From NCBI RefSeq assembly GCF_001984175.1, contig NZ_MTQP01000069.1, positions 62,001-126,000 on the forward strand: a stretch of DNA of 64,000 nucleotides. The letters are read 5' to 3'. How positions within the stretch are numbered: position 1 is the stretch's first letter; every line of letters begins with the position of its first letter. The position numbers were made by a program, and so were the translations under genes. The notes under the pieces are model-generated. The model made no database searches. It was not told the DNA's origin and was given only the letters and a program-made list of their open reading frames with translations. Positions 30,459 to 51,630 of this stretch are shown here, piece after piece. The DNA comes from Saccharothrix sp. ALI-22-I. GTDB lineage: Bacteria > Actinomycetota > Actinomycetes > Mycobacteriales > Pseudonocardiaceae.

Positions 30459-30476
30459 CATGTGACCGGTCACATG
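30459..30476. promoter_or_regulatory. LacI-type operator A1
   Basis: CATGTGACCGGTCACATG is a perfect 18-bp palindrome with the central CCGG typical of LacI-family operators. It lies about 105 bases upstream of the first module A operon gene and about 85 bases beyond the lacI-type gene. Confidence 0.82.
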
Positions 30477-30488
30477 GACTGGCGAGAG

Positions 30489-30502
30489 TGTGACCGGTCA
30501 CA
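30489..30502. promoter_or_regulatory. LacI-type operator A2
   Basis: TGTGACCGGTCACA repeats the 14-bp core of operator A1 exactly. The centres are 28 bases apart, suitable for two dimers binding side by side and blocking the promoter of the module A operon. Confidence 0.82.
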
Positions 30503-30561
30503 TAGGCTGATGAGAAGACCGCGTTACCGTGTTGTTACGAACAATTCGGACGGGTCGGGGG

Positions 30562-31593
30562 TCAACGACCGCGGGGAGGTGCGGTCGACTCGCGGACCAC
30601 GAGCGACGGCGGCGCCAACTCGACCGCCGGCTGCGGCAGCCCGGTCACCTCGGCCACGATCGCCGCCAGGCACGCGTGGCCGAGGGCCACGAAGTCCATC
30701 CGCACGGTGGTGAGCGCGGGCGTCCAGTAGGCCGCGCCGGGGACGTCGTCGAAACCGACGATGCTGACGTCGCCCGGGACGTCCCGGCCGGCCTCGTGCA
30801 GGGCCCGGCGGACCGCCATGGCGGTGTCGTCGTTGCCGCAGAGGATCGCCGTCACGTCCGGGTCCGCCGCCAGCCCGCGTCCGGCCAGGTAGGCCGACCG
30901 CACGTCCCACCCGGCCGGCACGACTTCCGGCACGGGTGCGCCGGCACGTTCGAGCGTGTCCCGCCACCCCGCCTGGCGGGCGCTCGTGCCGGTTTCCGAC
31001 GGTATGGCGACGTGGTGCACCGTGCGGTGCCCCAGGGACAGCAGGTACTTCGTGGCATCGGCGGCGGCCTGCCGTTCGTCCAGGTAGATCATGGACCGCG
31101 GGGTGTCGGTCAGGCCGCCCGCCTCCGTCGCGGCCACCGCCGGCACGTCCGCCGGCAGCGCCCGCAGGACCCCGGCCCCGGCCGCGTCGAAGGCGATCAC
31201 GACGATGCCGCCGGCATTGGGATCGCTCACGTACTCCACCGCGTGCCGGACGTCAACGGGACGGTCCGACTCCACCACCCGGACCCCGACCGCGAGCCCC
31301 TTCAGGCGCGCGGCCTCCTCGATGCCCTGCAGCGTCGAGGCGTAGCCGTACAGGGTGGTGTTCGCGATGACCACCGTCACCGCGCTCGAACGCCCCGAGC
31401 CGAGCGCCCTGGCCGCCCGGTTGGGCCGGTAACCCAACCGCTCGATGACGCCGAGAACCACCCGACGGGTGTCGGGGTTGACGTTGGGCGAGTCGTTCAG
31501 CACCCGGGACACGGTCTGGTACGAGACGCCCGCGGCCGCCGCGACATCGCGGATGCTGGGCGCGGATTCCCGCCCCCGCTTCCGGGCCGGCAT
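30562..31593 (-). CDS. LacI-family transcriptional regulator (module A)
   Basis: About 343 residues. The N-terminal HTH is PSIRDVAAAAGVSYQTVSRVLNDSPNVNPDTRRVV, followed by the hinge (RPNRAARALGSGRSSAVTVVI) and a periplasmic-binding-like sugar domain ending in the GDVSIVGFDDVPGA and TTVRMD motifs. It should bind DNA as a dimer and release on sugar binding. I use ATG 31593; upstream in-frame starts (GTG 31614, 31638) add an acidic tail. It lies immediately upstream of the module A operon, whose promoter region carries two perfect palindromes, so control of that operon and perhaps of the GH43 gene upstream is likely. Confidence 0.9.
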   Translation of the reverse strand: MPARKRGRESAPSIRDVAAAAGVSYQTVSRVLNDSPNVNPDTRRVVLGVIERLGYRPNRAARALGSGRSSAVTVVIANTTLYGYASTLQGIEEAARLKGLAVGVRVVESDRPVDVRHAVEYVSDPNAGGIVVIAFDAAGAGVLRALPADVPAVAATEAGGLTDTPRSMIYLDERQAAADATKYLLSLGHRTVHHVAIPSETGTSARQAGWRDTLERAGAPVPEVVPAGWDVRSAYLAGRGLAADPDVTAILCGNDDTAMAVRRALHEAGRDVPGDVSIVGFDDVPGAAYWTPALTTVRMDFVALGHACLAAIVAEVTGLPQPAVELAPPSLVVRESTAPPRGR

Positions 31594-31738
31594 GCCGGAT
31601 GAACGTCCTGTCACCCCGTCATCGTGATCGGTAACCACCGTGACGTCAAAACCACTTCAGACGCGGGACGCCGGTGCGGTCATCGCGGAAGCAGGGCATC
31701 GGCCCAGGCCCGATGCCCTCCTCCTCGCCGCGAACGGG

Positions 31739-33205: not shown

Positions 33206-33282
33206 AACCACTCCTCACGTGCACGCGGGAACCCGGGCATGGCAGTCGCCCAGGTACTGGACGGCGCCGGGTCGCCGCATGT

Positions 33283-33349
33283 GAACGCTAACAGTATCGA
33301 TGTTGCCCCTCAAGAATCCGATCTCAGGGTCTGGGTGGTTAGCGCTAAC
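33283..33349. promoter_or_regulatory. pair of LacI-type operator sites upstream of the GH43-CBM13 gene
   Basis: GTTAGCGCTAAC at 33338-33349 is a perfect 12-bp palindrome with a central CG. A second, imperfect copy (GAACGCTAAC) is at 33283-33292. They lie 80-145 bases upstream of the GH43 start. The sequence differs from the operators of modules A and B, so another LacI-type regulator may act here. The rest of the 33206-33496 spacer holds nothing recognisable. Confidence 0.6.
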
Positions 33350-35233: not shown

Positions 35234-36451
35234 TCACCGGACGTGGGTCAACGTGCCGAAGCCGAGGTGGTCGAAGCCGCCGCTGTTCGGGCCGTAGTCG
35301 CCGCCACCGCCCTCCGGGTAGACCCGGTCCATGTACGCCGTGGTGTTGGGCGCCGCCAAGCCGCGCCGCTTCACGTAGTGGTTGCGGATCAACGCCCAGA
35401 CCGGCCGGTTCTGCCCCCGGCCCACATCGGAGATCACGGTGTGCTCCCGCTGGGCGCAGTTGGTGCCGGTGCCCCACCGGTAGGTGGTGAACGGCACGGG
35501 GTTGCCCAGGTTGTACCGGGCCACGTACTCGGCCACCTGGAGGATCCGGTTGTTGCTGTACCCGTACAGGTCGGTGCCCTGGTTCCAGGCCATCTCGCAG
35601 AACGAGCCGAGCAGGCCGATGCCCATCATGGTGTGCCCCTGGTCCCGGCCGCTCTCCTGGAACTGGGCGAGGCCGCCGGAGTGCAGGAACGGGATGGCCT
35701 TCAGGATCGAGCCGTTGCCCGCGCCGGTCTTGAAGTAGTCGATCGCCTGGTTGATCTTGGCCTGGTCGTCGCACAGCACGCCGATGGCCAGCACCGAGTT
35801 GATCGTGCACAGGTCCCAGTTGGCCCAGTAGTTGGTGATGCAGGCGCCGTTGTGGTTGCGCAGGAAGTCGTTGTTCACCGGGTAGAAGACGTTCAGCATC
35901 ATGGTCTTGAACCGGTTGAGGTCGAACCCGCTGTAGCCGCGCATGATCTCGGCCGCGTTGGCGAACTGGTAGCCGTAGATCCCGGCGGCCAGGAAGCGGT
36001 CGGCGTTGCCGGTGACCGTCTTCAGCTTGGCCGACCAGGCGTTGAGGATGTTCCGCGCCGCGTCGCCGTGGGCCGTGTCGCCGCTGATCTTCCAGCGCAG
36101 GGCGTTCTGGTAGGCGGCGTGGATGTCGTTGTAGAGGGTCCCGTAGTTCTCGCCCTCCCCGCCCCGGATGACCGTCTCCAGCGGGTTCGCGACCCAGGAA
36201 CTGGCCGAGTGCCGGTTGGCGACGAGCTTGTCCCAGCCCGCTTTCCAGGGGTTGGTGCCGGCGTTGACCCGCGCCTTCATCCGGTCGAAGTCGGCCTGTG
36301 TGTGCAGCAGACCGGGGTGGACGGCGGCGAGCGCGGTGCCGCTGGTGTGCGGCAGGACGGCGGCCCCGACGCCGACGGCGAGCGCCGCCTTGAGGACGTT
36401 GCGGCGGCTGGGCTCGGTTTTGGGCGTGCTGGTAGACGAGTCGTCGGTCAT
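35234..36451 (-). CDS. Tat-exported alginate-lyase-family (PL5/PL38-like) protein, module B
   Basis: About 405 residues. The twin-arginine signal is PSRRNVLKAALAVGVGAAVLP (about 20-42). The helical domain starts VHPGLLHTQADFDRMKAR and ends GGGGDYGPNSGGFDHLGFGTL. Compared with the paralogue at 4421-5797, the blocks ITNYWANWD, GYQFANAAEIM and ESGRDQGHTMMG are conserved, but the Thr-rich linker is absent. Superfamily members eliminate uronic-acid linkages. ATG 36451 has AGGAG five bases upstream. A LacI-type operator of the module B consensus lies 64 bases upstream, so it belongs to that regulon and may remove glucuronic-acid-containing parts of the polymer. Confidence 0.83.
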   Translation of the reverse strand: MTDDSSTSTPKTEPSRRNVLKAALAVGVGAAVLPHTSGTALAAVHPGLLHTQADFDRMKARVNAGTNPWKAGWDKLVANRHSASSWVANPLETVIRGGEGENYGTLYNDIHAAYQNALRWKISGDTAHGDAARNILNAWSAKLKTVTGNADRFLAAGIYGYQFANAAEIMRGYSGFDLNRFKTMMLNVFYPVNNDFLRNHNGACITNYWANWDLCTINSVLAIGVLCDDQAKINQAIDYFKTGAGNGSILKAIPFLHSGGLAQFQESGRDQGHTMMGIGLLGSFCEMAWNQGTDLYGYSNNRILQVAEYVARYNLGNPVPFTTYRWGTGTNCAQREHTVISDVGRGQNRPVWALIRNHYVKRRGLAAPNTTAYMDRVYPEGGGGDYGPNSGGFDHLGFGTLTHVR

Positions 36452-36514
36452 GGCACTCCTTTGTGCACTGGTCACGACGGCCGGCGGAGGGCGGCGAACC
36501 CACCGATACAGGGA

Positions 36515-36530
36515 TAGAAAACGATACCTG
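36515..36530. promoter_or_regulatory. module B operator copy 1 (weak)
   Basis: TAGAAAACGATACCTG matches the left half and core of the consensus TAGAAANCGNTTTCTA but not the right half. It lies 64 bases upstream of the alginate-lyase-family start, divergent from the copy at 36594. Confidence 0.5.
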
Positions 36531-36593
36531 AATTTACGTCACCGAGACAGCCTCATGACACCAGTTGACGGGCATGAAGCTGGGCTTCTACCG

Positions 36594-36609
36594 TAGACAA
36601 CGCTTTCTA
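36594..36609. promoter_or_regulatory. module B operator copy 2
   Basis: TAGACAACGCTTTCTA matches the module B consensus at 13 of the 14 fixed positions. It lies 28 bases upstream of the 2-hydroxyacid dehydrogenase start, overlapping the expected promoter. Confidence 0.75.
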
Positions 36610-36637
36610 GTCCTGTCTGGGGAACGGAGCTGACTCG

Positions 36638-37636
36638 GTGGCGAATCGCCCGACCGCACTCTTCGCGATGAGCCGCGAGCACCTGCCGATGATCTTCCCG
36701 GAGCACGTCATGAGCCAGCTGCGCCGGCTCGTCGACGTCGACGAGACCGCAGTGGTGGAGCGGTTCGACACGCCGGAGGCGGTCGCGGCACTGGCCGACG
36801 TCGAAGTCCTGGTGACCGGCTGGGGCTGCCCTCCGATCGACGCCGCGGTCCTGCGGGCGGCACCTCGCCTGCGCGCCGTCCTGCACACGGGCGGCTCGGT
36901 CAAGGCCCACGTCACGCCCGAGTGCTGGGAACGCGGCGTGGTGGTGTCCTCGGCCGCCGACGCGAACGCCCTGCCGGTCGCCGAACTGACCCTGGCCATG
37001 ATCCTGTTGGTGGGCAAGGACGTGCTCGGACTGCGCGAGCGCTACCGGACCGAACGCCACTTCACCCTCGCCGAGGTCGTGCCCGACATCGGGAACTTCC
37101 GCCGCCGCGTGGGGATCGTGGGCGCGTCCAGGATCGGGCGCCGGGTAGTGGAGCTGCTGGCGCCGTTCGACCTGATCGTGTCGCTGACCGATCCGTACCT
37201 GACCGCTCCCCTGCCCGGCGTGCGGCTGGTGGAGCTGGACGAGCTGTTGCGCGACAGCGACGTGGTGAGCCTGCACGCCCCGGCCACCCCCGAGACGCAC
37301 CACATGCTGGACAAGAGGCGGCTGGCCCTGATCCCCGACGGCGGCGTGCTGATCAACACCGCGCGGGGCAGCCTGGTCGACACCGACGCGCTGATCGACG
37401 AGCTCTCGTCCGGGCGGATCAGCGCGGTCCTCGACGTCACCGAACCCGAGCCGCTGCCGTCCGACTCGCCGCTGTTCGACCTGCCCAACGTGTTCCTCAC
37501 CCCGCACGTCGCGGGCTCGCACGGCAACGAACTCGGCCGGCTCGGTCAGTCGGCGGTCGACGACCTGGAGCGCCTGATCGCGGGCGTCCCGCTGCAAGGC
37601 CAGGTGCTTCCCGCCGACCTGGACCGGGTGGCCTGA
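36638..37636 (+). CDS. D-isomer-specific 2-hydroxyacid dehydrogenase
   Basis: A 332-residue cytoplasmic oxidoreductase. The Rossmann motif is RRVGIVGASRIGRRVVELL (about 155-175; G-x-G-A-x-x-I-G is slightly altered from GxGxxG). The catalytic Arg lies in INTARGSLVDTDAL, Glu in VTEPEPLPSDS and His in LTPHVAGSHGNE. The family reduces 2-keto acids or oxidises D-2-hydroxy acids with NAD(P)H. The substrate is unknown; its place in a sugar regulon suggests a sugar acid such as an aldonate or a product of uronate breakdown. It starts at GTG, is under operator copy 2 and is followed on the same strand by the LacI gene after 133 bases. Confidence 0.87.
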   Translation: MANRPTALFAMSREHLPMIFPEHVMSQLRRLVDVDETAVVERFDTPEAVAALADVEVLVTGWGCPPIDAAVLRAAPRLRAVLHTGGSVKAHVTPECWERGVVVSSAADANALPVAELTLAMILLVGKDVLGLRERYRTERHFTLAEVVPDIGNFRRRVGIVGASRIGRRVVELLAPFDLIVSLTDPYLTAPLPGVRLVELDELLRDSDVVSLHAPATPETHHMLDKRRLALIPDGGVLINTARGSLVDTDALIDELSSGRISAVLDVTEPEPLPSDSPLFDLPNVFLTPHVAGSHGNELGRLGQSAVDDLERLIAGVPLQGQVLPADLDRVA

Positions 37637-37769
37637 GCACCCCTCGGCGGCATGCCGTTCCCCCTGACCGGCAAGGAGATCCGGCGTGCGGCCGGCGCGC
37701 CTCGGTGGTCGGGGAAGGGTGTGCACTATCGTGGTCGTAACCGGTTCCGCCACGAGGAGAAGGACCACA

Positions 37770-38831
37770 TTGGCCAGACGAGCGACCCCCGAGCAGGTGG
37801 GGCAAGCCACGGTGAAGGACGTCGCCGCGCGGGCCGGCGTATCCATTTCGACCGTGTCGAGGGTGCTCGGCGGAACGTACCCGGTGGCCACCGCGACCCG
37901 TGCCAAGGTGGTCCGGGCCATGCGGGAGCTGGACTTCGTGGTGAACGCGCACGCGCGGGCACTGGCCGGAGCGCACACCAAGGTCGTGGCGTTCGTGCTG
38001 GACGACGTCACCGGGCCGTTCCACGCCGCCGTGGCGCGGGGTGTGGAGCACCAGGCCACCACCGAGGGCCGGCTGTGCCTGCTGTGCACCACGCACGGTG
38101 ACCCGCAGCGTGAACTGGCCGTCATCGAGCTGATGCGGGAGCAGCAGGCCGACGCGGTGATCCTGGTCGGCGGCGCGTGGGAGGACTCCGCGCACCAGGA
38201 GCGGATGACGCACTTCGCGCGGGCGCTGGACCGGTCCGGTTCGCGCATGGTGCTGTGCGGACGTCCCGCCCTCGGACCGGACGTGCCCGCCACCGTCGTG
38301 GAGTACGACAACGAGAACGGCGCGTACGCGATCACCAGCCACCTCCTGTCCGCAGGCCACCGCCGGATCGCGTTCCTGGGCGTCGTCGAGAAGCTCACCA
38401 CGACCACCCAGCGCGTGCGCGGCTTCACCGAGGCCCACCGCGCCCACGGCCTGGCGCCCGATCCCGACCTCATCGTCACCGGCGCCTTCACCCGCGGCTC
38501 CGGCTACCAGATGACCAAGCAACTGCTGGCCGACGGCAAACCCTTCACCGCGATCTTCGCCGCCACCGACATCGTCGCCTCCGGCGTCTACCAGGCCCTA
38601 CGCGAAGCCGACCTCCGCATCCCCGAGGACGTCTCCGTAGTCGGCTACGACGACATCCCCCTAGCCCTGGACCTGGTACCCCCTCTGACCACGGTCCACG
38701 TCCCCCACGACGAACTAGGCCGCACCGCCGTCCGCCTGGCCATCAACCGCGCCACCGAGCCCGTCCAACACGTCATGCTCGGCACCCACATCGCAGTCCG
38801 CCAATCCGTAGGCCCACCCCCACCCCGCTAA
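37770..38831 (+). CDS. LacI-family transcriptional regulator (module B)
   Basis: About 353 residues. HTH: TVKDVAARAGVSISTVSRVLGGTYPVATATRAKVV, hinge VNAHARALAGAHTKVVAF, then the sugar-binding domain with HLLSAGHRRIAFLG, FTAIFAATDIVASGVYQAL and EDVSVVGYDDIPLALDLVPPLTTV. I start at TTG 37770, five bases after AAGGA; the frame upstream is basic and unlike the family. The protein is the obvious candidate to bind the five TAGAAANCGNTTTCTA-like sites in module B, though no such site precedes its own start. A CGTGG/CCACG inverted repeat around AACCGGTT (37730-37754) may serve for autoregulation. Confidence 0.9.
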   Translation: MARRATPEQVGQATVKDVAARAGVSISTVSRVLGGTYPVATATRAKVVRAMRELDFVVNAHARALAGAHTKVVAFVLDDVTGPFHAAVARGVEHQATTEGRLCLLCTTHGDPQRELAVIELMREQQADAVILVGGAWEDSAHQERMTHFARALDRSGSRMVLCGRPALGPDVPATVVEYDNENGAYAITSHLLSAGHRRIAFLGVVEKLTTTTQRVRGFTEAHRAHGLAPDPDLIVTGAFTRGSGYQMTKQLLADGKPFTAIFAATDIVASGVYQALREADLRIPEDVSVVGYDDIPLALDLVPPLTTVHVPHDELGRTAVRLAINRATEPVQHVMLGTHIAVRQSVGPPPPR

Positions 38832-38841
38832 CCCCACTCCC

Positions 38842-38865
38842 CGAGAGTCGAACGTACGACTCTCG
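38842..38865 (+). terminator. terminator hairpin after the module B LacI gene
   Basis: CGAGAGTCG (38842-38850) pairs perfectly with CGACTCTCG (38857-38865) across a six-base loop, 11 bases after the TAA stop. It lies between convergent genes and could act in both directions. Confidence 0.75.
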
Positions 38866-38951
38866 CGCGTGTCCAACGTTCAGAACGCGCGTGTCCAACG
38901 TTCAGAACGCGCGTGTCCAACGTTCGGGACGGGTGAGTTCAACGTTCGGGG
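38864..38951. repeat. four tandem 22-bp repeats containing GTCCAACGTTC
   Basis: Units start at 38864, 38886, 38908 and 38930. The first two are identical, the third changes only its end, and the fourth is diverged (GAGTTCAACGTTCGG). Each contains the palindrome AACGTT. The last unit overlaps the stop codon of the GH36 gene. I recall similar AACGTTC tandem blocks between convergent genes in related actinobacteria, but cannot check this here. Confidence 0.88.
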
Positions 38952-41059
38952 CGTAGGCGGAGGAGGCGAGCGCTGGTCTCGTCGGGCAGCGTCAGGTCCA
39001 GGACGCTGTCGCTGACGGTTGCGGTCTCGCCGCCCCACGAGGGGTATAGGACCTCGATGTCGGGGGTGGGGCCTAGCCATTGGAGTAGCGGGATTCGGGT
39101 CACGGGTGCGCCGCCGCGTCGCCATACGGCGAGAAGGAGTTCGGACGGAGTGCGCGTGCCTAGAGCGATCCAGTCGTCACGCCAGCCGGGGAGGCCCAGC
39201 GGCCACACGGGGTCACCGGTGACGATCGACGGCCGCAGGCTGCGGTAGACGGTGAGCGCCGCGCGGACTACGTCGCGCTGGTCCTCGTCCAGGGTGTCGA
39301 TCCGGCCGGCCAGGTGGATGCGCGCCGACATGCCCGAGATCAGCGAGAACGCCAGCTCCTCGTGGCTCATCGTGCCGTCCACCGACGCCCACACACCGGC
39401 CTGCTCCGGGGTGATGGCCAACGGCGCGGCCGCCGCGATGGGCGGCATGCTGCGGAAGTCCTGCTGGTCGGTCAACGACTGGATCGGGAACAACGCCCCG
39501 GTCGCCGCGTCCGTCCGACTCCCCCCTGCCGCACAGCCCTCGATGGTGAGACCCGGGTGCCGGTCCAGCACGTCGCGGACCCACTCCAGGTGCGCGCGGT
39601 TGTGTTCGAGCAGGCCGAGGCCGACGCTGCCGGCCAGATCGGTCCCCGCGCCGATGTCGATGTTGTAGTCGAACTTCAGGTACGCCGGGTCGAAGTCCGC
39701 CACCAGCCGGTCGACCACCCCGTCGAGGTGCTTGCGGGCCGCCGGGTGGCGCAGGTCGAGCTGGTACCGCCCCCACTCGACCACGCGCGACCCCGACCGC
39801 TGGAAGAACGCGTCCTCGGGCAGCGACGACGCCAGCGGACTCCGCAGCCCTACCACCTCCGGCTCCAGCCACAGGCCAGGCCGCAGCCCGACAGAGCGGA
39901 TTCGGTCGATTACGGCCTTCAGCCCACCACCGGGAAAGCGCCGCGACGACGGCAACCACTCACCGACAGAGTCCCACCAGCCGCCGTCCTCGTCGTCGTA
40001 CCAGCCGGCGTCGATGCAGTACCCGTCCACGCCCAACGCGGCGGCCGCCTCGACCAGCGGCAACACCCGATCGGTGGTCGGGTTCGACATCAACGCGTTG
40101 AGGAAGTCGTTGTACACCACCGGCAACTCGACGTTGTCCGGGTGCGGCCGACGAATCCGCCTGCGGTGCGCGGTCAGGGCGGCGCCCACGGCATCCAACC
40201 CGCCACCGACGACGACCGCGACCGACGCCGGCACCGTCCGGAACGACTCCCCCGCACCCAACGGCACCGAGCACTGGTGCTCGGCCGCGGAAGGCCCGGA
40301 CACGGCCAGGTACACCGCGCCCAGCCGGTCGCCGAGTTCCCAGTGCCACGCGCCGCAGTGCTCGACCTGCCAGGCCAGCATCGCACCGGACCGCTCGTCG
40401 GACAGCACGCCCATCGGCAGCATCTCCGACGTCGACCACGCGCCGACGCTGGTGGCCGCGATCCGGTTCTTCGACCCGAGCTGGTCGTAGGCGACCATCC
40501 CGACGTCGTACAGCCCTTCGGCGGCCAACGTCCGGCCGCTCCACCGGAACTCGCCGCTCCACGGGTTGGCCGCCCGCCACAGCACCAGTTCCGATTCCCA
40601 ACGCCGCCCGTGCCCGAGCCCGGCGACCACGAAACTGGACACGTACTCGATCACGACCGGACGACCCGCCACGACCTCCGCCCACGACCGGACGACCGGG
40701 ATGCCGGACGCGATCTCGTAGTGCACCAGAACCCGCACACCGTCATCCGGCTCAGCCAGCTCCAGCACCAGCCGGTGCACACCGTCCACGACCGAGGAGT
40801 CCTTGCCCACCAGCCGAAGCCGCTGTGCCGCCGCACCGTCCACGTGCCGCTTCCCCGCCGTGCCGTGCCGCCCGTCACCGGCCAGCGCCAACTCCACCAC
40901 CGGCAACGCGGACGCGAACAACGCGAACGACTCGGCGGGTGGCCGGTCGGCCGGCGTGACGGCGAGCAGCCGCGGCGGCGTGCCCGGCCCGTGCCCGAAG
41001 TGCAAGCGGACCTCGTCGGTGCCCCATTGCCAGTGCTCCACACCATCCACAGCGGTCAC
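38939..41059 (-). CDS. cytoplasmic GH36-family alpha-galactosidase (module B)
   Basis: About 706 residues without a signal peptide. GH36 marks: VYNDFLNALMSNP, CIDAGWYDDEDGGWW, GLWLEPEVVG, nucleophile Asp in YLKFDYNIDIG (about 490) and the acid/base Asp in LTDQQDFRSMP (about 565). Architecture matches the module A enzyme at 26000-28129, but sequence identity looks moderate, so the two probably accept different oligosaccharides. Start GTG 41059 overlaps the permease stop (GTGA) and follows GGTGAAG; longer open sequence upstream is the shadow of the permease. It is third in a permease-permease-GH36 operon, so its substrate should arrive through importer B. Confidence 0.9.
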   Translation of the reverse strand: MTAVDGVEHWQWGTDEVRLHFGHGPGTPPRLLAVTPADRPPAESFALFASALPVVELALAGDGRHGTAGKRHVDGAAAQRLRLVGKDSSVVDGVHRLVLELAEPDDGVRVLVHYEIASGIPVVRSWAEVVAGRPVVIEYVSSFVVAGLGHGRRWESELVLWRAANPWSGEFRWSGRTLAAEGLYDVGMVAYDQLGSKNRIAATSVGAWSTSEMLPMGVLSDERSGAMLAWQVEHCGAWHWELGDRLGAVYLAVSGPSAAEHQCSVPLGAGESFRTVPASVAVVVGGGLDAVGAALTAHRRRIRRPHPDNVELPVVYNDFLNALMSNPTTDRVLPLVEAAAALGVDGYCIDAGWYDDEDGGWWDSVGEWLPSSRRFPGGGLKAVIDRIRSVGLRPGLWLEPEVVGLRSPLASSLPEDAFFQRSGSRVVEWGRYQLDLRHPAARKHLDGVVDRLVADFDPAYLKFDYNIDIGAGTDLAGSVGLGLLEHNRAHLEWVRDVLDRHPGLTIEGCAAGGSRTDAATGALFPIQSLTDQQDFRSMPPIAAAAPLAITPEQAGVWASVDGTMSHEELAFSLISGMSARIHLAGRIDTLDEDQRDVVRAALTVYRSLRPSIVTGDPVWPLGLPGWRDDWIALGTRTPSELLLAVWRRGGAPVTRIPLLQWLGPTPDIEVLYPSWGGETATVSDSVLDLTLPDETSARLLRLRPER

Positions 41060-42024
41060 GACTTCACCGCGCCCAGCGACACGCCGCTCTTCCAGAACCG
41101 CTGCATCACCAGCATCACCGCGGCCAGCGGGATCACCGACAGCAGCGCGCCGGCGATGACGATCGCGGTGAAGTCGGTCGAGGCCGAGGCGTTCGTCATG
41201 CTCTGCACCAGCCAGTTGTAGATGCCCAGCGTCATGGTCCAGTTCTCCGCACCCTGCAACATCGTCATCGGCAGGAAGAAACCGTTCCACGACGCCACGA
41301 ACGAGAGCAGGAAGATCGTCGCGCCACCGGTGGCCACCATGCGCACCACGATCTGGAGGAAGATCCGAACCTCACCCGCGCCGTCGATGCGCGCGGCCTC
41401 CAGCAGCTCCGGCGGGATCGCGCCCTCGGTGTAGACCTTCGCCAGGTACACGCTGAACGGCGAGATGAACGTCGGGATCAGCACCGCCCACACCGTGTTC
41501 ACCATGCCCAGCTTCGAGAACAGCAGGTACAGCGGCAGGGTCAGCATGGCGTACGGGATCAGGAACGAGCCGATCACCAGGCCGAGGATCAGCTTCTTGC
41601 CGGGGAACGTGAACCGCGCCAGGCCGTAGCCCGCCGCGAGCGCCAGCGCCGTGTTGACCACCGAGCCGACCCCCGCGTACAGCAGCGAGTTCAGCGTCCA
41701 GCGCAGGAAGATGCCGTCCTCGTAGGCGAAGATCTGCCGCAGGTTGTCGAACAGGTTGAACTCGGCGAACCACAACCCGTTGGTGTTGATCAGGTCCGCC
41801 TCGTTCTTGGTGGCGGACACCAGCAGCCACCACACCGGGGCGATCGAGTAGATCAGGAACAGCACCAGCCCGACCAGCACCAGGATGCGCGACGACCGCG
41901 GCACCTGCACCCCGACGGCCGGCTCGTCGCCCTGCCCCCGACGCTGCTTGCGCACGGCACCCGGTCCGGGCTCGGACGCGGCCGGCTGATCGCTGTCTTT
42001 GCCGGTGGCAGCGAGAATGGTCAT
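41056..42024 (-). CDS. carbohydrate ABC transporter permease (MalG/CUT1 type), importer B
   Basis: About 322 residues. A polar 40-residue N-terminus precedes six membrane segments, the first being ILVLVGLVLFLIYSIAPVWWLLV. The EAA loop is PPELLEAARIDGAGEVRIFLQIVV. It ends SGVSLGAVKS, a typical MalG C-terminus. The ATG overlaps the upstream permease stop by four bases (ATGA) and its own stop overlaps the GH36 start, so three genes are translationally coupled. As in module A no ATPase is encoded nearby. Confidence 0.92.
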   Translation of the reverse strand: MTILAATGKDSDQPAASEPGPGAVRKQRRGQGDEPAVGVQVPRSSRILVLVGLVLFLIYSIAPVWWLLVSATKNEADLINTNGLWFAEFNLFDNLRQIFAYEDGIFLRWTLNSLLYAGVGSVVNTALALAAGYGLARFTFPGKKLILGLVIGSFLIPYAMLTLPLYLLFSKLGMVNTVWAVLIPTFISPFSVYLAKVYTEGAIPPELLEAARIDGAGEVRIFLQIVVRMVATGGATIFLLSFVASWNGFFLPMTMLQGAENWTMTLGIYNWLVQSMTNASASTDFTAIVIAGALLSVIPLAAVMLVMQRFWKSGVSLGAVKS

Positions 42025-42995
42025 GACTGCGTCCTGTTCCCGAGGCGGTAGAACAACGCCGACGCCGCTCCGACGACGATCGCGAGGATCACCGACAGTG
42101 CCGCCGCGTAGTTGTAGTTGCCCGCCTTGAAGGCCTGGTTGAAGATCATCATGATCGGGGTGAAGTTCGAGGTGACCGTCTCCGGTGAGGTCACCCGGAA
42201 CACCGTCGGCTCGGCGAAGATCTGCAACATCCCGATGATCGACAGCATCCCGGTCAGCACGAGCGTGCCGCGCACGTAGGGCACCTTGATCGACAGTGCG
42301 ATGCGCAGCTCGGAGGCGCCGTCGATGCGCGCGGCCTCGAACAGCTCCCTCGGCACCGAGCGCAGCGCGCTGTAGAGGATCAGCATGTTGAAGCCGACGT
42401 GACCCCAGGTCAGCAGGTTGCCGATGGAGAACCACAGCAGGTCGACGGAGAAGAAGTCGACCTCCAGGCCGACCTGCCGACCCGCGTCGGTGAGCGGGCC
42501 CAGCCGCGGCGAGTACAGGTACAGCCAGATCAGCGAGCCGACCATCAGCGGGATCATGTACGGGATCAGCAGGCCCAGGCGGAAGTACCGGGTCTTGCGC
42601 CCGGTCACCGCGTCCAGCAGCAAGGCCATCACCAGGGCCAGCAGCAGCATGATCGGGATCTGCACGACCGCGAACACCACGACCCGGAACGTGGCCTGCC
42701 AGAAGACCGGGTCGGTCAGCCCGCGCACGTAGTTCTCGAACCCGACGAACTCCGTGACCGCACGGCCGAAGCCGGAGCCGGACTTCCGCTCGATGAAACC
42801 GCTCTGGTACAGCGCGTAACCGAACGGGACCAGGAAGACCAGTGCGAAGCCGACCAGGAATGGCGCGGTGAACAGCAGGCCCGACAGGCGGGGAGCGCCG
42901 TGCACCCGCCGCGTGCGGTGGCCGGGCGCAGCGCGCGGCGCGGCGCCCGGCCTCACCGCGCGCGGTGGCCGACTCGCCGTGTCAACGTTGACCAT
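42021..42995 (-). CDS. carbohydrate ABC transporter permease (MalF/CUT1 type), importer B
   Basis: About 324 residues. A basic, Pro/Arg-rich N-terminus (about 1-40) precedes six membrane segments starting SGLLFTAPFLVGFALVFLVPFGYALY. The EAA loop is PRELFEAARIDGASELRIALSIKVPYV. ATG 42995 has a full GGAGGT five bases upstream. It is the first gene of the permease-permease-GH36 operon, divergent from the binding-protein gene at 43215; two module B operators lie in the 219-base spacer. Confidence 0.92.
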   Translation of the reverse strand: MVNVDTASRPPRAVRPGAAPRAAPGHRTRRVHGAPRLSGLLFTAPFLVGFALVFLVPFGYALYQSGFIERKSGSGFGRAVTEFVGFENYVRGLTDPVFWQATFRVVVFAVVQIPIMLLLALVMALLLDAVTGRKTRYFRLGLLIPYMIPLMVGSLIWLYLYSPRLGPLTDAGRQVGLEVDFFSVDLLWFSIGNLLTWGHVGFNMLILYSALRSVPRELFEAARIDGASELRIALSIKVPYVRGTLVLTGMLSIIGMLQIFAEPTVFRVTSPETVTSNFTPIMMIFNQAFKAGNYNYAAALSVILAIVVGAASALFYRLGNRTQS

Positions 42996-43029
42996 CCGAC
43001 ACCTCCGGTCGCGGAACGGAACCCACCCT

Positions 43030-43045
43030 TGGAAACCGTTTGCTG
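43030..43045. promoter_or_regulatory. module B operator copy 3
   Basis: TGGAAACCGTTTGCTG matches the consensus TAGAAANCGNTTTCTA at 11 of 14 fixed positions. It lies 34 bases upstream of the permease operon start. Confidence 0.65.
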
Positions 43046-43142
43046 ACGCTACAACTCCAGCTCTGATCCGGTCAACGAGCAGGCGGCAGACTCGCACACC
43101 TGGTGAGAGGACCGTTGACAGTGACCGAAGCTGGCCTCAGGA

Positions 43143-43158
43143 TAGAAAGCGTTTTCTT
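43143..43158. promoter_or_regulatory. module B operator copy 4
   Basis: TAGAAAGCGTTTTCTT matches the consensus at 13 of 14 fixed positions. It lies 56 bases upstream of the binding-protein start, on the other side of the divergent promoter region from copy 3. Confidence 0.78.
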
Positions 43159-43214
43159 CTGCTGCCGGGAGACCCCTTGCTCCTGGCGGTCGTGCGGGTC
43201 GGCAAGGAGCAAAG

Positions 43215-44546
43215 ATGCGAAACGCAAGGACGCGTTGGGCAACGGCGGTGGCCGGGGTGCTCACTCTCTCGCTGGCCGCCTGTGGCGGCGGCGCAACCGG
43301 GGAGACGGAGCAGGCCGCCGCGCCGAGCACCTACTCGGGCGAACCGGTCACCATCGAGTTCTGGGGCAGCAACCAGTACTTGAAGGGCCTCGCCGACGAG
43401 TACAACAAGCGCGGCGGCCCCATCACGGTCACGTTCACCCAGCAGCAGGGCAACCCGGATCTGCACAAGGCGCTGCGCAACGCGCACGCCGCCGGCGGCG
43501 GTCCCTGCGTGTTCGACACGATCACCGAGACGGTCAACTCACTGGCCTCCGACGGTATCGTCGCGGACATCAGCCAGTACATCGAGCCGTACAAGGCCGA
43601 GTACACGCCCATCGCGTGGGAGGCCGCGCGCGCCGGTGACCGCGCGTTCGGGTTGCCCGCGGCGAACATCCCCAACTTCATGCTCTACAACGCGGCGGTG
43701 TTCCAGAAGGCCGGCGTGCAGTACCCCACCACGTGGGAGGAGTTCATCGAGGCGGGCAAGAAGCTCAACGCCCAGGGCGTGAAGATCTTCAACCTGGCCG
43801 GCGAGGACTACACGACCTACGTGTACCTGGCCTGGCAGGCGGGCGCCCGGTGGTGGCAGCTGGAAGGCGACGGCTGGAAGGTCGACGTGGACAGCGCCGA
43901 CACCAAGCAGGCCGCGGACGTGCTCCAGCAGCTCATCGACAACGACCTGGTCGAGAAGATCTCCTACGCCGAGTTCGCGGCGATGATGCAGCAGTACAAC
44001 GCGGGCAACATCGCGGCCCGCCAGCTGTCCACCTGGCAGACCAAGAGCATGCAGAAGAACCTGACCACCGGCCTCGGCCAGTGGGAGCCCGCGCCGAACG
44101 TCAAGTTCGCGGGCGAGGAGCCGGCCAACGTGTCGTTCACCCGGGTGTACTCGGTCAACACCAAGTGCGCGAACCCGGCCGCCGCGGTGGAGTTCGCCCA
44201 CTGGGCGTCCACCGACAAGACCGCGATCAGCCTGATCGCCGACCCGGAGAAGGGCTCGTCCTGGTTCCCGGCGGTGGCCGACCCGGCGCCGTACACCGAC
44301 ATCTCCAAGCCCGTCCAGCTCATCGGCGCGCACGCGGACAAGTGGCAGTCGGTCGTCACCGACGCGGTCAAGACGCAGAAGGGCGACTGGCAGTACGGGC
44401 CGAACTCCCAGCCCGCGTTCGAGCACCTGGCCGACCTGTGGGGCAAGGCGGTCGACAAGCAGATCAAGGTCGCCGACATCGCGCCCGAGATGCAGAAGTG
44501 GATCGTGGACGACCTGCGGCAGAGCGGTATCACCGTAGTCGAGTGA
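43215..44546 (+). CDS. extracellular sugar-binding lipoprotein of ABC importer B
   Basis: About 443 residues. The lipoprotein signal RWATAVAGVLTLSLAACGGG has lipobox LAAC. The mature part is a family-1 solute-binding protein: VTIEFWGSNQYLKGLADEYNK, FMLYNAAVFQKAGVQYPTTWEEFIEAGKKL and aromatic residues (YLAWQAGARWWQLEG) that could stack on sugar rings. AGGAG lies seven bases before the ATG. It is transcribed away from its permeases, unlike module A where all are in one operon; shared operators in the spacer should keep them coordinated. A terminator hairpin follows directly. Confidence 0.9.
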   Translation: MRNARTRWATAVAGVLTLSLAACGGGATGETEQAAAPSTYSGEPVTIEFWGSNQYLKGLADEYNKRGGPITVTFTQQQGNPDLHKALRNAHAAGGGPCVFDTITETVNSLASDGIVADISQYIEPYKAEYTPIAWEAARAGDRAFGLPAANIPNFMLYNAAVFQKAGVQYPTTWEEFIEAGKKLNAQGVKIFNLAGEDYTTYVYLAWQAGARWWQLEGDGWKVDVDSADTKQAADVLQQLIDNDLVEKISYAEFAAMMQQYNAGNIAARQLSTWQTKSMQKNLTTGLGQWEPAPNVKFAGEEPANVSFTRVYSVNTKCANPAAAVEFAHWASTDKTAISLIADPEKGSSWFPAVADPAPYTDISKPVQLIGAHADKWQSVVTDAVKTQKGDWQYGPNSQPAFEHLADLWGKAVDKQIKVADIAPEMQKWIVDDLRQSGITVVE

Positions 44547-44552
44547 CGCCAC

Positions 44553-44595
44553 GGGGACGGTCCCTGGCACCCACGTAGCGCCAGGGGCCGTCCCC
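44553..44595. terminator. bidirectional terminator between convergent genes
   Basis: GGGGACGG-TCCCTGGC (44553-44568) pairs with GCCAGGGGCCGTCCCC (44580-44595) over about 16 positions with one mismatch and an 11-base loop. It starts seven bases after the binding-protein stop and lies 19 bases from the end of the hydrolase gene. Confidence 0.8.
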
Positions 44596-44614
44596 CGGTC
44601 AGGCACAAGATCGT

Positions 44615-45355
44615 TCAGACCGTGGAAAGCCAGTCCACCAACAGGTCGCAGAACTCGACCGGTCGCTGCTGGTGCAGGTAGTGGCTCAGCCCCGGCCAGA
44701 TCACCACGCGTGAACCCGGCGGCAACGGCAGCGACTGCGCCCAGTGGGCGGCGTACCGCGTGGAGTACAGGCTGAGCAGCGGCACCGGCAGCCGGGACAG
44801 GCACTCCGCGGCGGCCGGTCGACCACCGATCGCACCGTCGTCCAGGTACATCGACCGGTACAGCCGGGCCAGCACGGTGCCATCGGTCGCCAGCACCTGG
44901 CGGCGGGCATCACGCCAGAGCGCGGAATCACCACTCCCACCGCCGAACGCGGCGTCCACGAACTCAGCTCCCGCCTCGCTCCCCCGTCGTTCGAGGTCGG
45001 CCAGCCGGTCGGCACACCCGGCCAGCTCGTCGTCGTCGGCCCCGTAGGCGGGATCGATCACGGCCACGGCGCGGACCAGTTCGGGGTGGTCGACGGCGAG
45101 CCGCACCGCGATCTGCCCGCCCATCGAATGGCCGACGACGACCGCGGGCGTTCCGGCCGACGCGGCGATCACGGCGGCCAGACCGTCCACAATGCCCGGA
45201 ATACCGGTGCCCCCAGGACATCCCGGCGTGACGCCGTGACCGGGGAGGTCCGGGACGACCGCGTACCGATCGGCGAGCAACGGCAGGTACGCGTCCCAAG
45301 CGGCAGCGGACGCGCCCCAGCCGTGCACGAGCACAATCGCTTGCTGTACTTCCAT
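44615..45355 (-). CDS. alpha/beta hydrolase
   Basis: A 246-residue soluble alpha/beta hydrolase. It begins AIVLVHGWGASAAAWDAYLPLL (oxyanion HGW), has the nucleophile elbow VVVGHSMGGQIAV (Ser near 93), a VIDPAYGADDDE segment and the catalytic His in WPGLSHYLHQQ near the C-terminus. No signal peptide, so it is cytoplasmic. The family covers esterases, lactonases and C-C hydrolases. A module B operator centred 40 bases upstream places it in the sugar regulon, where a lactonase or acetyl/feruloyl esterase acting on imported fragments would fit; this is inference. Confidence 0.85.
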   Translation of the reverse strand: MEVQQAIVLVHGWGASAAAWDAYLPLLADRYAVVPDLPGHGVTPGCPGGTGIPGIVDGLAAVIAASAGTPAVVVGHSMGGQIAVRLAVDHPELVRAVAVIDPAYGADDDELAGCADRLADLERRGSEAGAEFVDAAFGGGSGDSALWRDARRQVLATDGTVLARLYRSMYLDDGAIGGRPAAAECLSRLPVPLLSLYSTRYAAHWAQSLPLPPGSRVVIWPGLSHYLHQQRPVEFCDLLVDWLSTV

Positions 45356-45387
45356 CTTGCCTGTTCCCTACCTCACCACTAGTTTCA

Positions 45388-45403
45388 TAGAAACCGCTTT
45401 CTA
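45388..45403. promoter_or_regulatory. module B operator copy 5 (perfect)
   Basis: TAGAAACCGCTTTCTA matches the consensus at all fixed positions and is palindromic except for the centre. It sits midway in the 75-base spacer between the divergent hydrolase and 1,521-residue protein genes, so one bound dimer could control both. Confidence 0.85.
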
Positions 45404-45430: not shown

Positions 45431-48400
45431 ATGATGCGATACGTCCGACTCCCGGCATCGGTGACCGCGGTCACCCTCACACTCATAGCCGCGCTCCTGC
45501 CGGCCACGACAACAGCCGCCGCGGCAGCCGCCGGCGGCACCGTCGACACGGTCACGTTCGGCGACGCGGAATCCGAACGCGCGCACGACTTCTCCGGCGA
45601 CTCGACCACCGTGGTCGACGGCGCCAACGGCCTGAAGGCGCGCGTGGCCGAGCCGTTGTCCCCGCCCAGAAGCCACCTCGGTGACCTCAGACTCGCGGTC
45701 AAGGTCGATCCGGCCGCGCAGAACTACCTCAGTCTGAAGTTCTGGGGCGAGGACGTCTCCACCTACAAGACCGTGTTGTTCGTCAACGGCGCGCAGACCA
45801 CCTACCGCCAGCAGGGCGACTACGAGCCGATCAACGTCGGCACCGGCAAGGGTCTGGAAGGCCGGTTCTTCGTCAACACGGCCATGCTGCCGCTCTCCTC
45901 GACGCAAGGACGCGACCGGGTCGAGCTGATCCTGCGCACCTACCACCCGAGCTTGACCTCCACCGCCACCGAGCGGTCCCGCAAGTACTACCAGGCGCTC
46001 GTGCACACCGGCGCCAAGGTCGACCTGACCGACGAGGACGACACCGGCTACCAGCCGTCCACCAAGGCCGCCCCGGCGTTGACCGCCGACGAGGAGAAGA
46101 CCCGGATCGACGGCCTGCGGATCGAACAGGTCGCCCTGTTCAACCGGCTCAGCGCGAAATCGGACGCGAGTCCCGGCGCCACCCTCAACATCAGCCGCTA
46201 CCAGGACGAACTGCGGTTCTACACCGAAGTCCTGCTGACCGACTGGTCGCCCGCCCGGACACCGGCGGACAAGAAGCTGGCGCTGGACCGCGTCTTCAAG
46301 TCGATCGACAACTTCACCAAGCAGTACTACGGCAACGTGCGCAGCCTCGGCGACGGCGGCCACCAGTCCGACTGGGGCGGCTACTACTCGGCGCTCGGAG
46401 AAGCGCTCTACATCGTGGAGAACCTCATCGCCGACGACCAGGTCTACGGCGCGCAGCGGTTCACCGAGTTCCTGGGGCAGCCCTTCGAGACCGGCACCGC
46501 CGACGGACCGAACAGCATGGCCGGGGTCGACTGGAGCGGCGGCGCGCTCACCCGGGGCGAGGCGTGGGAACGCGTCCTCAAGGCCAACTTCGACTTCGCG
46601 CGGTCCCGGTTGTCCTACATCTACAACCAGGTCATGTACACCTACGAGGGCGCGTGGAAGGCCCACGAAGGCCTGCGCGTAATCGGGTCCGGGTTCTTCG
46701 AGGGCAAGCCGCGCAGCCACGCGATCGTGGGCGAGTCGCTGGGCTCGCGCCCGTTCCTGGGTGAGGAGGTGCTCGTCGGCCCGAACGGCGAGGAACTGGA
46801 CCTCTACCACTCGTTGTTCCAGCACGACCGCAACGCGATGTACAGCAACGACTACCTGAACGTCGTCATGCGCGGGGTGGCCAAGAGCAAGCTGGACGCC
46901 GAGGGCAACGTGGTGCGGCGGCTGCCGTACGGCAAGCACTACACCGGCCTCACCCGTGACGGCCAGACCCGCGAGAACACCTACGTCGGCAACTACGGCG
47001 AGTCCACGAACTACGTGACCTCGTGGTTCTTCCGCACCCTCGACCACGCCGGCGACGAAGAGCTCAACAACGAGATCCTCAAGCTGGCGCTGCGCAACGT
47101 CCACGCCCGCGGCCACACCCGCTACCAGAGCACGGACGCCGACGGCAACCGCGTGATGCTCATGCAGCAGGTGATCGACGAGCGCAACTCCGGTTACCCC
47201 GGCCGTGTCGCGTACGCGTCGGACGTCAACTCCGGCCGTGGCCTGATGTTCGCCGCCTTGGAGCAGTTCATGGCCGACAACGCGGACAAGTACGCCGGAC
47301 CGGAGTGGACGCCGTTCTGGGGCTACGCCCGCGAGGCGGTCGGGTTCGCGCAGCAGCAACTGGTCGACAACCAGTACTTCCCGTACTTCAACTACGTGCT
47401 GGCGAACCACAAGTACGACCTGCGGCTGCCGAAGACCTACGAGTACATCACCGGCAAGCGCGCGGAGTACGCCGTGCTCGGCGGCAAGACCGCCGCGGGT
47501 GTCGTGCTGCCGCACACCGACCCGGCCCGGTACACCGACGAGGAGCTGGCCAAGCTCGGCATCGAGCGCGATGCCGCCGAGAAGCCGTTCGCGTGGGTGG
47601 ACATCGACAACATGTACGTCTCCGTCCGTGACGGCGACACCCACCTGTTCGGCAGCCTCTTCGAGCGCAACCGCGGCTATCTCGGCAGCGGCAGACTGCA
47701 CGCCCAGCACGGCGACCACGACCAGCTCGTGCAGCTCCAGACCCAGGGCGTGCTGGCGTACCAGGACTACACGCTGCGCGCGAACGCGGTGGAAGACCCG
47801 ATGCTCTACGACCGGTACTCCGCGCCGGACCGTCCGCTGGCCATGACCGGTGAACTCGCGCCGATCGCGTACCAGCCGGGCGTCGGCACGGTCGTCCGCG
47901 ACAACTGGATGCCCGACACCCCGTACTCCGGCTACCCGGACCTGCTGACCGCCCGTTACGGCAAGTACCTCATGGCCGTGAACGGCACCCGCCTCGAACA
48001 CGGCAACGCCAAGGCTCACCACGTGCGGGTGCCCGCGGGTGGCCCGAGGGACTCGGTCACGGACCTCGTGACCGGCAGGCGTCTCCCGGTCATCGCCGGT
48101 GTGGTGGCGGTGCCGCCGTCAACCGCCGTGGTGTTGGACCTGGGCACCGAGGAGGTCAAGCCGTCCGCGCCGTCGACCGTGGACGTCGTGGTGGCCACGC
48201 CGGGCTCGAACGCGGTGGGTCTGGCCTGGCACCCGGCCGCCGGCGCCACCTCGTACACGATCAGCCGGTCGGCTCGCGAGGCCGGACCGTTCTACCCGGT
48301 CGCGCACGGCGTGAAGACCACGTCGCACATCGACCGGACCCCGTCGGCCGGCACCTTCTTCTACCGGGTCACCGCGGTGAACGGCCAGGGTCTCGGACGT

Positions 48401-49996: not shown

Positions 49997-50028
49997 GCAG
50001 TCTCATCGTGTGTGGAGAGGTGGAGTCG

Positions 50029-51630
50029 GTGTCCGGTCCGTCGGGCGTGGAAGTGCGCAATCCGATCTTGCGGGGTTTCCACCCCGACCCGTCGATCGTG
50101 CGCGTGGGCCCGGATTACTACATCGCCAACAGCACGTTCGAGTGGTTCCCCGGCATCCGGCTCCACCACTCCACCGACCTCGCGCAGTGGCGGCCCGCCG
50201 GGTACGCGCTCGCCGATCCCGGCGCGCTCGACCTGCGCGGCGTGCCGGACTCCGGTGGGATCTGGGCGCCGTCGCTGAGCTACCACGACGGGCGGTTCTG
50301 GCTGGTGTACGCCGTGGTGTGCACCAGGGTGGGCCCGTTCAAGGACCTGGACGTCCTCCTGGTCACGGCGCCGTCGATCGACGGCCCGTGGACGGCGCCG
50401 CTGCACCTCGGGTCCGGCGGGTTCGACCCGTCGATCTTCCACGACGAGGACGGCAGGCACTGGCTGGTCAACATGACCTGGGACCACCGGCCGGACCGGC
50501 CGAGCTTCGCGGGCATCGTGCTCCACGAGATCGACCCCGCCCGCGGGCTCGTCGGTGCGCGCAGGCTGATCCACACCCACGACGAGCTGATCGAAGGGCC
50601 CAACCTGTACCGCCGGGACGGGTGGTACTACCTGATGCTGGCCGAGGGTGGCACGGGCTGGAACCACGGGATCAGCGTGGTGCGGTCCCGGGACATCGCG
50701 GGCCCGTACGAACCCGACCCGCACGGCCCGCTGCTCACCTCGCGGGACCGCGAGGACCTCTCGTTGCAGAAGGCCGGTCACGGTGAGTTGGTCGAGACCG
50801 GGACCGGCGAGTGGTACCTGGTGCACCTGGCGAGCCGTCCGCTGACCGTGGACGGCGAACGCCGGTGCATGCTCGGCCGCGAGACCTGCCTGCAACGGCT
50901 GGAGTGGACCGCCGAGGGCTGGCCACGACTCGCCCACGGCGACCACTGGCCACGGGAGACCGTCGTGGTGCCGGCTTCGTCCGAACCGGCTGTGTCCGGA
51001 CCGTCGTGGTCGCGTCCGTCGCGGGACGAGTTCGACACCGATCGACTGTCCGACGAGTGGAACTCGTTGCGCCAACCGGTGAGCGAGCGCTGGTTGAGCC
51101 TGACCGAACGCCCCGGCTGGTTGCGGTTGCGCGGCCGGTACAGCCTGCACGCCCACTTCGGGCAAAGCCTGATCGCGCAACGCCTCGCCCATGACCGCAC
51201 GGTGGTGACCACCGCCGTGCAGATCCGCCCCGAATACCCGGGTCAGCAAGCCGGGCTGGTGTGCTGGTACGACACCGGCACGCACTTCTTCCTCGGCGTC
51301 ACGACCGGAGACGACGGCCCGTTCGTCGTGCTGGCCGTGTCGGACCTCGGCGTCTACGCCGAACACGACACCCGCATCCGGCCCGCTCTCGGCGCCCTGA
51401 CCCACCTGCGCGCCACCATCGACCGCGATCGGCTCCGCTTCGCCGTGTCCCACAACGGCACGGACTGGACGGACGTCGGTCAGGAGCTGGACGCCAGCGT
51501 CCTGTCCGACGACTACGGCAACTCCCTGCGCTTCACCGGCGCGTTCGTCGGTTTGGCCGCACACGACCCGGTAACCGGAACCCTGCCCGCCGACTTCTCC
51601 TACTTCGACCACCGCGAACTACCCGCCTGA
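50029..51630 (+). CDS. GH43-family glycoside hydrolase with C-terminal beta-sandwich (beta-xylosidase / arabinofuranosidase type)
   Basis: About 533 residues, no signal peptide, so probably cytoplasmic. The propeller (1-310) has the catalytic base in RGFHPDPSIVRVG, the modulating Asp in GGFDPSIFHDEDG and the acid Glu in LIEGPNLYRRDGWYYLMLAEGGT. The C-terminal sandwich (about 330-530; DEFDTDRLSDEWNSLRQP, then LVCWYDTGTHFFLG) is typical of the GH43 subgroup with xylosidase/arabinofuranosidase activity. Start GTG 50029 follows GGAG by five bases; it begins 32 bases after the 1,521-residue protein gene, so the two form one operon under operator copy 5. Substrate is probably a short imported pentose-containing oligosaccharide. 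Confidence 0.9.
   Translation: MSGPSGVEVRNPILRGFHPDPSIVRVGPDYYIANSTFEWFPGIRLHHSTDLAQWRPAGYALADPGALDLRGVPDSGGIWAPSLSYHDGRFWLVYAVVCTRVGPFKDLDVLLVTAPSIDGPWTAPLHLGSGGFDPSIFHDEDGRHWLVNMTWDHRPDRPSFAGIVLHEIDPARGLVGARRLIHTHDELIEGPNLYRRDGWYYLMLAEGGTGWNHGISVVRSRDIAGPYEPDPHGPLLTSRDREDLSLQKAGHGELVETGTGEWYLVHLASRPLTVDGERRCMLGRETCLQRLEWTAEGWPRLAHGDHWPRETVVVPASSEPAVSGPSWSRPSRDEFDTDRLSDEWNSLRQPVSERWLSLTERPGWLRLRGRYSLHAHFGQSLIAQRLAHDRTVVTTAVQIRPEYPGQQAGLVCWYDTGTHFFLGVTTGDDGPFVVLAVSDLGVYAEHDTRIRPALGALTHLRATIDRDRLRFAVSHNGTDWTDVGQELDASVLSDDYGNSLRFTGAFVGLAAHDPVTGTLPADFSYFDHRELPA

Follow-up and report, generated by a model that had tools for sequence, protein, structure and literature searches.

In the abstract and passages of the survey by Ravcheev et al. 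2014 (PMC4052901), in which Actinobacteria are under-represented, the operators of LacI-family local regulons are usually even, CG-centered palindromes located near start codons, and the regulators are autoregulated. For Streptomyces, excerpts of the respective articles give TGGGAGCGCTCCCA as the operator of CebR (PMC4898821) and describe BxlR as the LacI-type regulator of the xylo-oligosaccharide cluster (PMC12772271). Here, we analyzed a 64,000-nucleotide stretch of the soil actinobacterium Saccharothrix sp. ALI-22-I (contig NZ_MTQP01000069.1, positions 62,001 to 126,000; the window), in which a gene cluster, module B, encodes a LacI-family protein, LacIB, and carries five palindromic putative operators in its spacers. 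We propose, with a probability of approximately 0.87, that LacIB represses module B, an apparent set of genes for plant polysaccharides, through TAGNNANCGNTNNCTA-type palindromes lying over the transcription starts, the alpha/beta hydrolase gene being a possible exception. The proposal was built from the sequence: the sites, their conservation, their association with relatives of LacIB, and their abutment on candidate promoters.

Putative operators in the window, the genome, and Saccharothrix deserti

Sites were scored against the pattern TAGAAANCGNTTTCTA with up to three mismatches, and 100 dinucleotide shuffles of the window served as the control. The window contained exactly five matches (Table 1), and the shuffled windows contained 0.12 on average and 2 at most. 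In each of the five, positions 8-9 read CG, so the sites are even, CG-centered palindromes; they lie 27 to 63 bases from the start codons they face. An earlier note on this DNA had reported the same five sites at 28 to 65 bases from the facing starts and none in the other spacers of the window. All five were recovered, the distances agreed closely, and the other spacers were free of sites at three mismatches or fewer; however, its statement that all sites fit the consensus was too generous to 36515 and 43030.

In the genome (10.3 Mb), three places matched with no more than one mismatch and four with no more than two. The sites at 36594, 43143, and 45388 are the sole genome matches at the former threshold, which by itself puts them beyond chance. 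At three mismatches or fewer, 38 places were found, 33 of them outside module B, compared with 22 for the reversed pattern. Equally good matches throughout the genome, which the earlier note had named as grounds for rejection, were thus absent for the three strong sites but present for the two weak ones taken alone.

The near relative Saccharothrix deserti retains nearly the whole region of module B and the neighboring module A, with protein identities of 78-97%; the GH43-ricin gene of module A had no match in the S. deserti stretches fetched. In the three spacers, which are noncoding, the window and S. deserti agreed at 79 of 80 operator bases, compared with 327 of 376 other bases (P = 0.0015 against random placement of an equal number of 16-mers in the spacers). 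The same was observed in the most divergent spacer (36476-36637), where 31 of 32 operator bases and 98 of 130 other bases were identical. By site, identity was 16/16 at 36594, 43030, 43143, and 45388 and 15/16 at 36515. All four places in S. deserti with no more than one mismatch adjoin LacIB or a LacIB-like gene. One S. deserti stretch (L039, 9259-10366) carries a second LacIB-like gene, in two frames, beside an importer and a one-mismatch site, TAGAAAACGTTGTCTA.

Relatives of LacIB and promoter geometry

Named bacterial genomes were scanned with the LacIB alignment, which yielded 460 relatives; the best 79 loci (61-71% identity, 1.49 Mb), chosen on the protein alone, were kept, from genera including Streptomyces, Glycomyces, Nonomuraea, and Kribbella. 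The motif was present in 42 of these 79 loci at one mismatch or fewer and in 65 at two or fewer, for 49 and 115 sites, respectively, whereas 29 palindromes built from a permuted half-site averaged 0.03 and 0.48 sites over these 1.49 Mb (highest, 1 and 6). The relaxed core TAGNNANCGNTNNCTA had 95 exact matches in 60 of the 79 loci, against three or fewer for each of 11 permuted cores, and the central CG was present in all 114 distinct-context sites. Among LacI proteins of 60-90% identity, 66 of 80 had a site within 10 kb.

In the relatives, most sites faced the gene of the D-2-hydroxyacid dehydrogenase (HADH) or that of the solute-binding protein (SBP). For 117 sites, the nearest start belonged to HADH in 45 cases, SBP in 21, a LacI-type gene in 12, the large secreted protein in 5, permease 1 in 2, the hydrolase in 2, and GH43 in 1; the remaining 29 were nearest to none of the query genes. 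After de-duplication, 26 of 33 HADH-facing sites were located 21-66 bp ahead of the HADH match. Many of the 79 loci repeat the HADH-LacIB gene order, and HADH, where present, usually precedes LacIB. In some loci (for example, L193 and L225), several units carry sites. Motif matches also led to a contig (G247) from a genus other than Saccharothrix within the family, which holds a related cluster with identities of 66% for SBP, 68 and 74% for the permeases, 64% for GH43, 56% for LacIB, and 54% for HADH. This contig holds 10 sites at two mismatches or fewer in 52.7 kb, of which one, between the binding protein and permease 1, is perfect.

LacI paralogues are numerous (96 first-look candidates in this genome), and the sites might accordingly be controlled by a LacIB paralogue encoded elsewhere, such as G000:C58 (57% identical), or by a global LacI regulator. 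We consider this improbable. The 20-kb stretches around nine LacI genes of a sister clade, namely, C58 and eight clade mates, contained no site at two mismatches or fewer except that of L050, which lies upstream of another LacI gene. A global regulator of the CcpA type would be expected to have many strong sites throughout the genome, but only three were found, all of them local. Few sites, confined to the regulator's own cluster (3 of 3 places at one mismatch or fewer are in module B), are instead what a local regulon predicts, as is the gene layout, in which the regulator adjoins its targets and is probably autoregulated because LacIB lies downstream of HADH, behind the operator at 36594.

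At all five window sites, a candidate -35/-10 pair ends at the operator or no more than three bases from it on the gene-facing side (joint P = 2e-4, the floor of the test, as 0 of 5000 flank shuffles reached the observed promoter score). The pairs were TTGACG-18-TACCGT for HADH (36594), with its final T being the first operator base; TTGACA-17-CAGGAT for SBP (43143); TTGCCT-17-TAGTTT for the large protein (45388), ending three bases before the site; TTGACC-18-TAGCGT for permease 1 (43030), ending one base before the site on the minus strand; and GTGTCA-19-TAAATT for the AlgL-like protein (36515), whose -10-like box also ends one base before the site on the minus strand. An equally scoring pair occurs elsewhere in the AlgL-side stretch. 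On the hydrolase side of 45388, no recognizable promoter was found (P = 0.55). In 70 de-duplicated upstream regions of the relatives, strong promoters were concentrated at offset 0 (26) and offset -4 (11), with 0-2 at the other tested offsets; offset 0 is slightly favored because the first base of the operator is T.

An operator that covers the start site points to steric repression. Some LacI-family proteins act as activators, and LacIB might do so at the module B sites; we consider this very improbable, as the sites lie over +1 and not upstream of -35. Under the proposed mechanism, LacIB would occupy TAGNNANCGNTNNCTA-type palindromes over the +1 sites of module B, possibly except at the hydrolase start. 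Its targets would be its own HADH-LacIB operon, the permeases with GH36, SBP, the AlgL-like protein, and the large lyase-like protein with GH43. When substrate is absent, LacIB would occlude RNA polymerase at +1 and block initiation; an imported oligosaccharide, most likely containing xylose and/or uronic acid, would bind the periplasmic-binding-protein-like domain and release LacIB.

The two weak sites could be chance matches or non-binding remnants, with the three strong sites alone acting as operators. The 33 places outside module B, compared with 22 for the reversed pattern, agree with such a view, as does the site at 36515 being still weaker in S. deserti; nevertheless, we regard it as unlikely. 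From those 33 places, approximately 0.0015 background sites would be expected in the three module B spacers (456 bp in total), but two were found. In addition, 31 of 32 weak-site bases are kept in S. deserti, and a candidate -10 box abuts each weak site, although that of the AlgL-like gene is the weakest of the five promoters (P = 0.03). Position, conservation in S. deserti, and promoter geometry thus support 36515 and 43030 as putative operators.

Several observations weigh against repression of module B by LacIB as proposed. Two of the five window sites are weak, and with three mismatches each they are at genome background if judged alone; the changed base in S. deserti moves 36515 away from the consensus (four mismatches), so that a three-mismatch scan misses it. 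Fourteen of the 79 loci had no site at two mismatches or fewer. A core variant with one mismatch adjoins HADH or LacIB in six of these, and L181 has a variant that is more degenerate, but the other seven have no core variant nearby; single variants are weak evidence because permuted cores gave 9, 4, and 1 chance matches at one mismatch in 371 kb. Among distant homologues (54-60% identity), only 6 of 25 LacI proteins had a site within 10 kb, and bands below 60% are biased upward, as some loci there were fetched for bearing a site. The 79 loci are non-independent, with many loci per genus and in some cases two from one genome; of the two peptide patterns by which they were selected, one sits in the hinge, close to the DNA contacts. 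The window geometry was noticed by eye before it was scored, so the test in the relatives is the more independent one. Finally, binding, repression as opposed to activation, and the effector are predictions. The comparative evidence supports the single regulon under LacIB that the earlier note had suggested, with the qualification that two of its five sites are weak matches. Its extension to all transcription units is unproven for the hydrolase, given the lack of a recognizable promoter on that side of 45388; control of this gene by 45388 is possible.

Genes of module B and neighboring regulators

Module B genes were called from Pfam domains and inspection of start codons (Table 1). Both domains of LacIB, PF00356 (N-terminal helix-turn-helix) and PF13377 (C-terminal, periplasmic-binding-protein-like), scored above the cutoffs. 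The top NCBIfam model for the GH36-like enzyme was beta-L-arabinopyranosidase, with a score below the cutoff of that model. The large secreted protein is a candidate uronate-polysaccharide lyase, with a helical toroid-like part and a beta sandwich recognized by weak fold matches. Its first ~900 residues (window 45506-48118) belong to a widespread family found, for example, in Streptomyces, Nonomuraea, Kribbella, and Paenibacillus, whose fold weakly resembles those of uronate-polysaccharide lyases; the Pfam search returned no catalytic model for this part.

Table 1. Putative operators and genes of module B, and the LacI gene of module A (window coordinates).
Feature	Position	Strand	Remarks
LacIA, second LacI (module A)	30562..31638	-	Set aside as regulator of module B sites
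AlgL-like protein (PF05426)	35234..36451	-	Likely start ATG 36451 behind AAAGGAG; predicted regulon member
Weak operator, TAGAAAACGATACCTG on +	36515..36530	-	3 mismatches; faces AlgL-like gene
Operator	36594..36609	+	1 mismatch; faces HADH-LacI operon
HADH	36638..37636	+	Pfam; predicted regulon member
LacIB, putative LacI-family repressor	37770..38831	+	Pfam LacI helix-turn-helix and Peripla_BP_3; downstream of HADH
GH36-like enzyme	38939..41059	-	Start approximate; overlaps permease 2 stop
ABC permease 2	41056..42024	-	Likely start ATG 42024, overlapping permease 1 stop
ABC permease 1	42021..42995	-	Likely start ATG 42995
Weak operator, TGGAAACCGTTTGCTG on +	43030..43045	-	3 mismatches; faces permease-permease-GH36 operon
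Operator	43143..43158	+	1 mismatch; faces SBP gene
SBP of importer	43215..44546	+	Pfam
Alpha/beta hydrolase	44615..45355	-	Pfam; no promoter-geometry support for control by 45388
Perfect operator	45388..45403	+	0 mismatches; faces 1,521-residue protein-GH43 operon; also upstream of divergent alpha/beta hydrolase
Large secreted protein, 1,521 residues	45431..49996	+	Candidate uronate-polysaccharide lyase; CBM_4_9 at C terminus
GH43 beta-xylosidase-like enzyme	50020..51630	+	Start approximate
All operators are putative. ABC, ATP-binding cassette.

The second LacI protein, LacIA, is encoded only 5 kb away and is conserved along with module B in S. deserti, so that it might bind the module B sites alone or jointly with LacIB. 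This seems highly unlikely, as a different palindrome, TGTGACCGGTCACA, is present beside its own gene at 30461 and 30489 and occurs exactly only twice in the genome; the best matches to these copies in the S. deserti stretches were 16/16 and 15/16 bases. LacIA shares its recognition helix, YQTVSR, with E. coli LacI; the arms of the ideal operator of the latter are TGTGA. Moreover, the G247 contig carries its ten sites, yet LacIA matches there are of only approximately 30% identity. The two TGTGACCGGTCACA copies (window 30460-30503), 28 bp apart, lie where the module A gene for a CBM35 protein begins and are probably the operator of LacIA.

Palindromes of other types were also observed. Upstream of the GH43-ricin gene (31739-33211), the window contains GTTAGCGCTAAC and a near copy, GTGAACGCTAAC (33281-33349), which may perhaps serve a third LacI-type regulator encoded elsewhere; 13 of 100 shuffles gave two such matches. 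In five of six loci of one clade (L047 and L146-L149), a TAGAAA...TTTCTA palindrome whose center is not CG precedes the LacI gene by ~3 kb. A LacI clade of 57-60% identity (L137, L138, and L041) had no nearby TAG sites at two mismatches or fewer, and two of its three loci carry TGG-type palindromes (TGGAAACCGATTACCA and TGGCAATCGATTACCA), a possible shift in specificity.

Comparison with known systems

The kind of regulation proposed for LacIB is ordinary, whereas this branch seems undescribed. Literature searches by literal consensus and by keyword returned no publication on this regulon among the titles and abstract openings, and the abstract and passages of PMC4052901 mention neither the LacIB motif nor its orthologue group. 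We give even odds to a broader proposal, namely, that LacIB represents an undescribed actinobacteria-wide orthologue group with the operator TAGNNANCGNTNNCTA over the start, the final T of the -10 box often being part of the operator, and that it controls a widespread, unnamed pathway for a polysaccharide containing uronate and xylose/arabinose, with a lyase family lacking a Pfam catalytic model as the main depolymerase. Interest is moderate and lies chiefly in this handle on an apparently undescribed pathway: the operator and regulator form a testable pair for polysaccharide use in many genera of Actinobacteria, operator scanning offers a route to more pathway genes, including the large lyase-like family, and the constant spacing between operator and promoter makes a simple induction assay feasible.

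The LacIA module is similar to module B in that a LacI regulator lies by GH36, CBM35, and an importer module, but the two regulators differ in the palindrome beside LacIA and in the recognition helix (YQTVSR in LacIA and SISTVSR in LacIB). BxlR, in the excerpts of PMC12772271, resembles LacIB in gene neighborhood, with an ABC importer and a beta-xylosidase adjoining the regulator; these excerpts give no operator sequence. CebR, as presented in the excerpts of PMC4898821, resembles LacIB in being a LacI/GalR-like regulator from Actinobacteria that serves polysaccharide use and has an even, CG-centered palindrome; however, its half-site is TGGGAG rather than TAGAAA/TAGNNA, its target genes also differ, and its operator was not matched by the window sites when compared by eye. 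The overall organization of the LacIB system resembled that of the local sugar regulons in the passages of PMC4052901, with a CG-centered even palindrome, sites near the starts, probable autoregulation, and sugar genes adjoining the regulator.

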